DNA from: Flavobacterium davisii
Lineage (GTDB): Bacteria; Bacteroidota; Bacteroidia; Flavobacteriales; Flavobacteriaceae
DNA: 64,000 bases
Assembly: GCF_019565505.1 (NCBI RefSeq)
Contig: NZ_CP067378.1
Span: forward strand, 186,001-250,000
Direction: 5' to 3'
Position numbers and translations under genes: made by a program. Below the pieces are notes generated by a model. It was given only the letters and a program-made list of their open reading frames with translations, did not search any database and was not told the origin of the DNA. Positions within the stretch are counted from its first letter, which is position 1. The number at the start of each line of letters is the position of its first letter. Below, piece by piece: positions 19,664 through 40,853 of this stretch.

Positions 19664-20491
19664 TTATCCAGCAAGCTTATAAATCATTATATCTGTATAA
19701 CTCGATTGATGAGTAACATTTGTATTCATTGTTTCCATTTTAGAGCCATTGAAAGGATTCGCTAAAGTCGAACGGCTTTCAATCCACTCACATAACTCCA
19801 CAATTTGACTTTTATTAGAAGTAAAATAAAAGTAATTCGAACCTTCAAGCACGTTTAGTACGTCCAAATAATCCCTTAAATTCCAATAGCCTTTATAAGT
19901 GCTTGCGTCAGTAGATAAGTACGGTGGGTCGACCAAAAACACAATGTTTTTACAATCCTTATACTTTTTGAAAAGCTCTTTGTAATCCATTTGAACGACT
20001 TCTATTGCGTCTAAATAACCCTCTGCGGTATAGTTGGATTGGCGCACGCAATTGTAAAGCGTTGACTTTTCAATTTCATTATAGCAAGTTGCATAGTTCA
20101 TTGAAAACAGAATTGAGCTTGATATCGTTATGTAATCAACGTATCCTTTTGCTTCTTCTAATTTGATCCGCTCTAAAATTTCCTTACGCGCTTCTTCTTT
20201 AATGATTTTGTCTTTTGGGTGGTTTGCTAATATTTGTCTAATATCACTTAGTAAAACGTTGGTTTTATCAATGTTTGCCAAGCGTTCGCTATAGCCGTCG
20301 AAGTCATTGTAAACTACTGTGGCATTTGGGTAAAACGCTTTAACGGTATGACTAAGTAAACCCGAACCGCCGAACATATCTATATAAATTGCATCAGATG
20401 GGAAATCGTTTAAAGCTGGTTTGAATTTCTTTAAAAATTGACGTTTTTGCCCCATGAAAGGAAGGGGTGCACTTGAAAAAACTTTTTTCAT
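19664..20491 (-). CDS. dam: D12 class N6-adenine DNA methyltransferase (Dam-like)
   Basis: 275 aa. LPFMGQKRQFLKKF is the N-terminal FxGxK SAM-binding motif, DMFGGSGLLSHTVK the motif I loop, and FLVDPPYLSTDAS the DPPY catalytic motif. Orphan phage Dam enzymes mark phage DNA against host restriction or control transposase and packaging; recognition sequence cannot be read here. Last gene of the late minus-strand series and divergent from the structured RNA at 20548. Confidence 0.88.
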   Translation of the reverse strand: MKKVFSSAPLPFMGQKRQFLKKFKPALNDFPSDAIYIDMFGGSGLLSHTVKAFYPNATVVYNDFDGYSERLANIDKTNVLLSDIRQILANHPKDKIIKEEARKEILERIKLEEAKGYVDYITISSSILFSMNYATCYNEIEKSTLYNCVRQSNYTAEGYLDAIEVVQMDYKELFKKYKDCKNIVFLVDPPYLSTDASTYKGYWNLRDYLDVLNVLEGSNYFYFTSNKSQIVELCEWIESRSTLANPFNGSKMETMNTNVTHQSSYTDIMIYKLAG

Positions 20492-20515: not shown

Positions 20516-20545
20516 TTGATTAATTAAATTTGATGATTACCTTTG
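20516..20545 (+). promoter_or_regulatory. Consensus promoter driving the structured RNA
   Basis: TTG (20516-20518), 19 bases, then TACCTTTG (20538-20545) match the Bacteroidota -33 TTG / -7 TAnnTTTG promoter. The expected start at about 20550 falls on the first bases of the inverted repeat, on the strand opposite to dam and the tail genes. Confidence 0.65.
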
Positions 20546-20547
20546 CA

Positions 20548-20672
20548 CTTCCTACGATAATTTATAACATAGTAAAGCCACGACATAGAAGACTTTTTGT
20601 CCTCCAACGTCGTGGCTTTGTGCTATAATAAATTACCGTAGGAAGTATTTATTTTGTTGGAGGACTTTTTTT
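20548..20672 (+). ncRNA. Candidate structured phage RNA with pseudoknot and U-tract
   Basis: Nested stems: CTTCCTACG (20548-20556) with CGTAGGAAG (20637-20645); an AT-rich middle stem; and AAAGCCACGAC (20574-20584) with GTCGTGGCTTT (20609-20619), 11 bp perfect. The apical loop ends in GTCCTCCAAC (20599-20608), which is the exact complement of GTTGGAGGAC (20656-20665) directly before T7 (20666-20672). The last pairing can form either a pseudoknot with the big stem or a terminator in competition with it. No ORF is present. I do not recognise an Rfam family, but cannot exclude one such as Flavo-1. Confidence 0.6.
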
Positions 20673-20692
20673 ATTCTCCCCTCCGAAAGAAA

Positions 20693-20854
20693 TTACTTTA
20701 CTGCATCTTGCGAAAAGATTAGACCAATACCCGCAAGTACGGCCGTTAAAGATTCAATAATTTTTGTTTTATCATTCACGAATAATAAAACTCCTGATGC
20801 TATGGAAACAACGCCGGCCGACGTGGTTTTCCAGTTTTTAAAAATTAATCCCAT
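20693..20854 (-). CDS. Small membrane protein, holin-like candidate
   Basis: 53 aa: MGLIFKNWKTTSAGVVSIAS, then GVLLFVNDKTKIIESLTAVL and AGIGLIFSQDAVK. Two short hydrophobic stretches flank a charged turn. Small KNWKTT...GIGLIFS proteins are common in phage late regions and are often called holins, but this one is far from the endolysin gene. Its start overlaps the stop of the gene at 20854. Confidence 0.5.
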   Translation of the reverse strand: MGLIFKNWKTTSAGVVSIASGVLLFVNDKTKIIESLTAVLAGIGLIFSQDAVK

Positions 20855-40391: not shown

Positions 40392-40853
40392 TTAAATTTT
40401 GGACTTTATTTCCCACAAACCTTCTTGGGAAGTTTTTCTTAAACTTTGATTACCATTTTTATTATCCCAATCAGTCCCTAATTTCTGTATTTTCTCTTTA
40501 TCTGCTTTAGAATTAAATAGGTTTTTATATAAGTCAAAAACTATTAAATATTTACTTGCAACAGAATCGATAGTCCATTTTTTTACACCTTTTTCACCTA
40601 GGTCTTTATTTTCACCTTGATTATGGGTGAAGTATAATATATAAAATACATTATTCTCATTATCAACATATTTATCATAAGTCTTCCACTCTAATTTTCC
40701 AGTTTCAATTTTCTTTAAATTTAATTTTGATTCCGTTATTAATTTTGAGCAAATATTAACAAATTGAATAGAATCGAGTCCCTTAAAATTAATTGATTGA
40801 GCATTCAAAAATAAACAACTTAATAAAGCTGTAAGTAAAATTAGTTTTTTCAT
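40392..40853 (-). CDS. Exported phage-encoded protein, possible lysogenic conversion gene
   Basis: 153 aa with a signal peptide (KLILLTALLSCLFLNAQ). The mature part (KLNLKKIETGKLEWKTYDKY, KWTIDSVASKYLIVFDLYKN) has no recognised domain. Exported proteins encoded inside phage regulatory regions are often morons. Confidence 0.55.
   Translation of the reverse strand: MKKLILLTALLSCLFLNAQSINFKGLDSIQFVNICSKLITESKLNLKKIETGKLEWKTYDKYVDNENNVFYILYFTHNQGENKDLGEKGVKKWTIDSVASKYLIVFDLYKNLFNSKADKEKIQKLGTDWDNKNGNQSLRKTSQEGLWEIKSKI

Follow-up and report, generated by a model that had tools for sequence, protein, structure and literature searches.

A candidate antisense RNA opposite the leaders of predicted DNA-modification operons in phages of Bacteroidota

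Introduction

In plasmid antisense systems such as RNAI/RNAII and RNAIII of pIP501, an antisense hairpin RNA covers the leader of the gene that it controls. The mom gene of phage Mu is held back by a leader structure that Com opens, according to the accessible sections of PMC6483171, and in Bacteroides, cis-antisense RNAs have been proposed to act as repressors of their operons (PMC7366714, accessible sections). The paper on the Flavobacterium columnare phage fF4 likens the methylase gene of this phage, its second last ORF, to mom, and its accessible text contains no mention of an RNA like the one described below (PMC7761591). The same is true of the accessible text of PMC6199706, PMC10367356 and PMC5395568. 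As far as the open-licence PMC literature could be accessed, we recognized no paper describing the element, and in the part of this literature that was searched we know of no account of an RNA that controls the DNA-modification operons of Bacteroidota phages.

Here we analyze a structured element in a prophage of Flavobacterium davisii. The window is the whole stretch of 64,000 nt that was analyzed (NZ_CP067378.1, positions 186,001 to 250,000 of the forward strand), and all coordinates below are counted from its first nucleotide. A preliminary description had singled out this element as an undescribed structured RNA with its own promoter.

Results

The element lies between late genes and a divergent methyltransferase gene

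The prophage in the window carries genes for a transposase (phrog_310) and a transposition protein (phrog_296) at 46-49 kb, followed toward the element by terminase, portal, head and tail-sheath genes, while the element and a methyltransferase gene are found at the opposite side of the prophage at about 20 kb. Like fF4, this phage is transposable and has a contractile tail. We checked three Mu-like phages, namely the window prophage, fF4 and the hankyphage, and in these the element is located beyond the late genes near the phage end. In most copies of the family, the ORFs on the far side of the tail share the gene strand and point at the element. The preliminary description had placed the element against the methyltransferase and the late genes, and this was borne out. 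We refer to the strand of the predicted promoter (+ in the window) as the promoter strand and to that of the methyltransferase as the gene strand. The features are as follows.

19664..20491 (-): D12-type DNA methyltransferase gene, divergent (phrog_56 DNA methyltransferase, E 1.6e-31)
20516..20518 (+): TTG, -33-like promoter element, 19 nt ahead of the -7 box
20538..20545 (+): TACCTTTG, Bacteroidota-type -7 box (TAnnTTTG)
20547..20556 (+): P1 5′ arm, with the predicted RNA 5′ end at or adjoining it (fold, swap test)
20558..20565 (+): AT-rich middle stem, 5′ side (fold)
20574..20584 (+): P2 5′ arm, 11-bp stem (fold, swap test)
20587..20593 (+): AGAAGAC, purine strand at the tip, weak pairing with the C-rich loop strand (fold); its invariance among relatives is partly a product of the search pattern
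20599..20608 (+): GTCCTCCAAC, C-rich loop strand, P3 5′ strand (covariation)
20609..20619 (+): P2 3′ arm (fold)
20628..20635 (+): AT-rich middle stem, 3′ side (fold)
20637..20646 (+): P1 3′ arm (fold)
20656..20665 (+): GTTGGAGGAC, G-rich tail, P3 3′ strand (covariation, wobble direction)
20666..20672 (+): T7 tract, predicted transcript end (sequence; T-run in relatives)
20680..20684 (+): CCTCC, complement of the tail (P5), in many relatives within the loop of a further hairpin
20693..20854 (-): 53-aa gene, the last ahead of the element on the gene strand, converging on the RNA

The TTG, the -7 box, the three-part stem, the loop-tail complement and the T7 tract of the preliminary description are all present, and the promoter assigned there agrees with the consensus in its TAnnTTTG box and in a -33-like TTG 19 nt upstream. 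Its hairpin is real, but the stem given as 98 nt spans 100 nt in full (20547-20646), of which P1 accounts for 10 bp (20547-20556 with 20637-20646) and P2 for 11 bp. The loop strand GTCCTCCAAC is the exact complement of the tail GTTGGAGGAC, and the conserved CCTCC beyond the T-tract (20680-20684) adds to the parts listed before. For the predicted transcript (20546-20672), the folding energy is -46.7 kcal/mol with z = -8.37, a value equaled by 0 of 200 shuffles, and the stretch 20516-20680 gives z = -7.63. The opposite strand (20546-20690) folds even better in the window copy, at -66.6 kcal/mol with z = -12.3.

The methyltransferase start codon is separated from the promoter box by 46 bp, and the protein has no Pfam match at E 0.001. 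In fF4, the methyltransferase (L010 335-799) has an annotated length of 154 aa, and its alignment with the 275-aa protein of the window covers residues 1-136 of the latter; the gene thus appears to be shortened in this inducible phage.

Rfam gave no match at the gathering score in the whole window. A permissive scan of the element region yielded RF03532 (SQ2397) as the best match, with 24.2 bits where the gathering score is 100, and permissive scans of 26 loci yielded only sub-threshold matches, the best being RF03716 in L050 (30.8 vs 74). 6S-Flavo (Flavo-1), which is likewise a structured RNA and comes from the same class of bacteria, was absent among the Rfam matches to the element region up to E 10. 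With no matching family in Rfam, Flavo-1 included, the element fits its earlier designation as undescribed. A structured motif from a 2017 motif survey, the D12-methyl RNA motif, is reportedly located upstream of D12 methyltransferase genes, as the element is. This name was absent among the matches of the Rfam scans of the window and the 26 loci, and the open-licence literature yielded no paper using the term.

Relatives of the element are found in phages and prophages of Flavobacteriia

A second copy with 87% identity is located about 120 kb off in the same genome (G000:C1:329242-329440; L002, L018) and has the same neighboring phage genes, and the element of fF4 is 74.6% identical to the window copy. 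We rejected a MITE or multicopy repeat, as the genome itself harbors only two strong copies, both beside the same phage genes. The plasmid collection contained no match to the element.

To collect relatives, we used a search pattern consisting of the loop and tail motifs only, in which neither the promoter nor the gene was included. The pattern matched 90 viral and 74 genome stretches, and a script applying it over all loci found 171 places, 145 of them distinct. The family was defined as the 121 distinct sequences, including that of the window, that have TAnnTTTG 40-56 nt ahead of the loop motif; their named hosts are almost all Flavobacteriia. Seven family hits that matched the AT-rich promoter flank only were left aside. 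An 18-base pattern was discarded with one unrelated GC-rich match, and comparisons with attC, retrons, ribozymes and pRNA were dropped with no supporting feature.

The box was found at -40 to -56 from the loop motif in 85 of the 90 viral and 54 of the 74 genome matches. Records titled Bacteroidota account for 53 of the 54 boxed genome matches, the exception being a MAG labeled Cardiobacteriaceae (L127), while 19 of the 20 unboxed genome matches are from other taxa, and the remaining one (L129) is a Flavobacterium copy that has been truncated. Among the five unboxed viral matches, four have near-boxes by eye and L076 is a GC-rich chance match. The promoter box was absent from the pattern and yet segregates with Bacteroidota titles, which provides an independent check on the pattern.

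Two rearranged copies were observed in this collection. In L129 (Flavobacterium sp. TAB 87), the promoter and the P1 5′ arm are missing, and the remainder of the truncated element adjoins what appears by eye to be the 3′ end of a D12 gene. In one viral contig (L292 and L035), the tail unit, GGAGGAC with the T-tract, is tandemly duplicated.

The long stems and the loop-tail helix covary

The 121 sequences were grouped by greedy clustering into 41 representatives. The mean longest stem formed between the arms of the same member was 11.0 bp for P1 and 10.3 bp for P2, but only 5.1 bp and 4.4 bp, respectively, when the arms were swapped between members. In the loop-tail helix, positions 1-7 are fixed by the search pattern save one A/G choice and thus have little proof value, whereas positions 8-10 are unfixed. 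Watson-Crick plus G-U pairs were found in 39+2 of the 41 representatives at position 8, 29+10 at position 9 and 24+5 at position 10, while the Watson-Crick pairs expected by swapping were 20, 12 and 16, respectively, and A-U, G-C and C-G pairs are exchanged at these positions. The element is thus more than a chance structure, since arms from different relatives pair far worse and the loop-tail positions 8-10 covary; the covariation in relatives that the preliminary description had proposed to look for exists in the stems as well as in the loop-tail helix.

A swap null for the loop-tail score over 56 broad representatives did not discriminate (8/56 above the 95% null). This null is uninformative because the members share the complement, and the covariation at positions 8-10 is the usable test. 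RNAalifold on a plain MAFFT alignment of 41 of 42 sequences (L065 omitted) recovered the tip only, owing to variable stem lengths, and stems were therefore determined per sequence and evaluated by the swap tests.

The wobble pairs were examined for the strand on which they can form. Read on the promoter strand, loop-tail positions 8-10 of the 41 representatives contain 17 G-U and no A-C pairs, and the loop-tail wobble over 56 representatives of all clades favors the promoter strand by 76 vs 13, although these cells are not independent events. It is the promoter strand that the box and the loop-tail helix both indicate.

The long stem behaves differently between clades. Among the Flavobacteriia-type copies, the gene strand is more stable than the promoter strand in 119/121, and the P1/P2 wobble read on the promoter strand consists of 50 A-C vs 13 G-U in the 41 representatives, with ratios of gene strand to promoter strand of 12:3 for P1 and 40:7 for P2. 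In the other clades, the long-stem wobble favors the promoter strand instead, and the sum over 28 broad clusters is 39 for the promoter strand vs 33 for the gene strand. A gene-strand fold inferred from the Flavobacteriia-type P1/P2 wobble was withdrawn after the broader sampling had reversed the bias elsewhere; as the bias conflicts between clades, the long stem is assigned to neither strand.

A run of at least four T follows the tail GGRGGAC in 117/121 members, and the 5′ strand of the loop-tail helix is unusually far upstream, in the loop of the hairpin. The distance from P1 to GGRGGAC is 9-17 nt, and the loop-tail pairing is conserved. Downstream, CCTCC follows 80 of 110 GGAGG tails and CCCC follows 10 of 11 GGGGG tails, and a hairpin around this CCTCC or CCCC was predicted in 69/121 members vs 9% of flank-shuffled controls. 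Of the 90 broader representatives, 84 have a recognizable tail, and in 75 of these the tail is complementary to the downstream strand. The wobble of this P5-tail pairing leans to the gene strand (24:12), on which its loop is A-rich. Titration of Shine-Dalgarno sequences by GGAGG/CCTCC was rejected, since other clades use GGGGGC/GCCCCC. The 3′ internal strand may also pair with the linker: at least 7 bp were found in 54% of the cases when both came from the same member vs 22% after swapping, but this pairing is AT-rich.

The predicted promoter opposes the leader of an exchangeable gene

The two free positions of TAnnTTTG vary in the -7 consensus of Bacteroidota, and they do so across the family (TATA, TACC, TATC, TACT, TAAA and others). 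A TTG is located 17-22 nt ahead of the box in 63/121 members vs 19% of shuffled upstream sequences. The P1 stem begins 0-5 nt past the box in all 41 representatives (1-4 nt in 39), and thus the predicted start of the opposite transcript coincides with the base of the hairpin. The promoter and the 3′ end signal of the predicted RNA are assigned by consensus.

On the gene strand, TAnnTTTG was found in 0/187 elements within the 48 nt from the box onward and in 6/187 when the element and the leader were considered together, which is under the shuffled mean. As the leader has no promoter box of its own on the gene strand, the gene is probably reached only by transcription through the element. The first ATG is located 0-47 nt behind the box in 180/187 elements, and the element is upstream of this ATG on the gene strand. 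If transcribed as leader on that strand, the element would overlap the leader of its target.

The first gene on the opposite strand belongs to one of six kinds in all 120 testable motif-found copies (121 in total): D12 methyltransferase (54), thymidylate-synthase-like (30), a 42-aa gene with an ATPase-acetyltransferase-formyltransferase set (21), Mom (5), ParB-linked methyltransferase (5) and C5 methyltransferase (5). The first gene was identified by tblastn in 113/121 copies, and one of the other eight has only 54 nt of sequence. The D12 tally comprises 46 by tblastn, seven by Pfam (PF02086) and one by eye; this last is L142, one of the 113, in which a D12-like gene is first by eye and Mom was recognized at 870 nt. 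Some neighbor genes are broken or cut, e.g., in L128 and L041. Family assignments are supported by PF25680 for Mom (E 1.8e-62), PF00303 for thymidylate synthase and PF00145 for DNA_methylase. The D12, Mom, thymidylate-synthase-like, ParB-linked or C5 gene is the first recognized gene in 99/120 copies; in the other 21, the 42-aa gene comes first, one example of which encodes one cysteine and has no Pfam match. We infer that the thymidylate-synthase-like and ATPase-set genes modify DNA.

The same element is followed by a thymidylate-synthase-like gene alone in L061 and L020 and by a ParB-linked methyltransferase in L031, L047 and L086. The retention of the element with differing modification neighbors suggests that the cargo is exchanged behind it. 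Small ORFs were also observed in this position. In the loci examined between L236 and L296, a conserved first gene of 42-47 aa lies about 125-140 nt ahead of the ATPase gene in 14/15, and similar 80-aa ORFs are situated between the element and the D12 gene in L191, L193, L197, L204, L208 and L226, about 300-315 nt ahead of the latter and alike in 6/6 loci examined.

The same layout with other sequences is present beyond Flavobacteriia

Further loci were fetched through the neighbor proteins and not by the motif. The strict motif was present in the upstream regions of 3/41 D12, 1/6 Mom and 10/70 ATPase genes thus obtained. A search for the layout, which required the box and a stable hairpin, detected the same arrangement with other sequences in 37 distinct candidates among 50 D12 and Mom loci, of which L219 and L221 were judged false by eye, and in 24 candidates among 80 ATPase loci. 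For example, the tail strand GCCCCCAG is accompanied by the tip CUGGGGGC in L202, and the tail strand AGCCCCUGAC by GUCAAGGGCU in L223.

A blastn search with one of these other-sequence elements retrieved 22 phage records, 19 of which are named Bacteroides phages, including hankyphage p00. The hankyphage element (BK010646, box at 40,686, tail strand starting at 40,556) is flanked by the retroelement genes on one side and by an 80-aa ORF on the other, after which thymidylate synthase and N6 methyltransferase genes are encoded. Five Porphyromonas gingivalis phages harbor the element ahead of a 42-aa gene and the ATPase gene, and the 42-aa gene is annotated as an acr candidate in 4/5 records. In one of these phages (BK068090.1; L314, ~870-977), the loop is inverted between perfect arms compared with L316-L319, which abolishes the loop-tail complementarity; the inverted repeat has apparently undergone an inversion or a template switch.

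Discussion

Late genes converge on the element, the modification gene has no box of its own, and the opposing promoter starts at the base of the hairpin. The simplest account of this arrangement is an antisense RNA, and we propose with moderate confidence that the element encodes a cis-antisense RNA of about 125 nt to the leader, which would restrain leakage into the late modification operon and silence it except in the late phase. The modification gene is probably reached only by polymerases that pass through the element, and the opposing promoter would fire across the leader of the operon to produce an RNA predicted to extend from the hairpin base to the T-tract. The loop-tail helix adjoins the T-tract and would be a natural terminator stem, possibly in the form of a pseudoknot; as the 9-17 nt must span a stem of about 25 bp or more, this would require the stem to bend, P1 to open or two separate molecules to pair. 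Repression would occur through pairing of the RNA with the leader (and cutting by RNase III) together with polymerase collision, and strong late transcription would overcome it.

Several observations weigh against the antisense RNA. The promoter is a putative one, recognized as a consensus match, and the wobble of the long stem, conflicting between clades, does not indicate which strand would be at work. It is odd that P5 is conserved beyond the T-tract if the RNA always ends there. The predicted RNA would stop short of covering the start codon, and late timing is supposed by analogy with Mu. The sets of a 42-aa gene, ATPase, acetyltransferase and formyltransferase, 21/120, are not proven to modify DNA, and in the Bacteroides-type phages it is an 80-aa ORF that comes first.

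The serious rival, although we consider it unlikely, is that the gene-strand mRNA leader is the working molecule, in which the long hairpin and a small upstream hairpin or pseudoknot would set processing, stability or translation and the opposing promoter would be secondary. The better folding of the gene strand in 119/121 Flavobacteriia-type copies, the wobble in P1, P2 and the P5-tail pairing (12:3, 40:7 and 24:12) and the A-rich P5-tail loop on this strand are in its favor, as is the control of Mu mom at such a leader hairpin (PMC6483171, accessible sections). Against it stand the opposite wobble bias in the other clades, the loop-tail wobble on the promoter strand and the fact that the opposite transcript is predicted to start right at the hairpin base. 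A promoter box and predicted terminator of its own would also suit a trans-acting phage RNA with a separate target, for instance a sponge or an anti-defense decoy, whose only tie to the modification genes is an anti-restriction island common to both. The conserved C-rich loop, the long near-perfect duplex and the neighboring genes of anti-restriction type fit such an RNA, but a trans role does not need the fixed head-to-head place with little spacing that is seen in 120/120 testable copies, and we regard it as distinctly improbable.

Promoter interference alone could block late transcription, with the hairpin and T-tract acting as a compact terminator or roadblock, and the lack of a gene-strand promoter box in the leader and the T-tract after the G-rich tail agree with this idea; however, a plain terminator needs neither a loop-tail design that covaries across clades nor two long covarying stems, which makes it very unlikely. 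The least probable explanation is a site acting at the DNA level, either a recombination hot spot for swapping modification cassettes or the packaging or transposition signal considered in the preliminary description. Unrelated genes behind the same element and the inverted loop between perfect arms in one Porphyromonas phage would fit a recombination site, but we found nothing tying the element to packaging or pointing to a transposition signal, and the promoter box, the T-tract, the covarying stems and the strand-specific loop-tail wobble favor an RNA.

If the antisense RNA is extended to the whole group, we would tentatively suggest, while considering it somewhat doubtful, that an RNA switch with exchangeable cargo replaces the Com-type protein in Mu-like phages of Bacteroidota. 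The C-rich strand would pick either the weak tip or the G-rich tail that ends transcription, the tail might alternatively take the downstream C-rich hairpin, and any modification operon placed behind the element would be silent in the lysogen and released late.

The element is found in the hankyphage, a widespread phage of gut Bacteroides, and other phages that harbor it infect bacteria of the mouth or bacteria associated with fish. TAnnTTTG, the C-rich loop, the G-rich tail and the T-tract together provide a handle for finding modification operons, which also reaches the unexplained ATPase-acetyltransferase-formyltransferase set. Strand-specific RNA-seq of the hankyphage has been published and could test the predicted RNA (PMC12135933, accessible sections), and the timing of DNA modification by transposable phages becomes testable in culturable lysogens.

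Among the known systems, the plasmid antisense RNAs resemble the proposed RNA in being hairpin RNAs antisense to a leader. No T-run was seen by eye after the hairpin on the gene strand, and attenuation of the pIP501 type is thus not indicated. The DonS-type cis-antisense sRNAs of Bacteroides are likewise small RNAs from the opposite strand, in the same phylum, and are proposed operon repressors, but they concern host genes of polysaccharide-utilization loci, and the accessible text mentions neither a loop-tail design nor a link to DNA modification (PMC7366714).

The com-mom operon of Mu resembles this locus in that a Mu-like phage carries its modification gene near the right end, and in Mu the control is post-transcriptional, through an RNA structure in the leader, with Com activating the translation of mom. 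The accessible texts on fF4 and the hankyphage place a modification gene near the right end (PMC7761591, PMC6199706), and in the window prophage the transposition genes at 46-49 kb are at the side opposite to the modification gene. The Haemophilus phage SuMu has an annotated Com ahead of a gene related to the D12 methyltransferase of the window (38% identity), which indicates that the modification gene is exchangeable in com systems too. No Com-like zinc finger was seen ahead of the modification gene among the 120 testable copies, where the 42-aa gene was tested in one example. The two systems differ in that the position of Com, where Mu uses a protein, is occupied here by a structured element with an opposing promoter.
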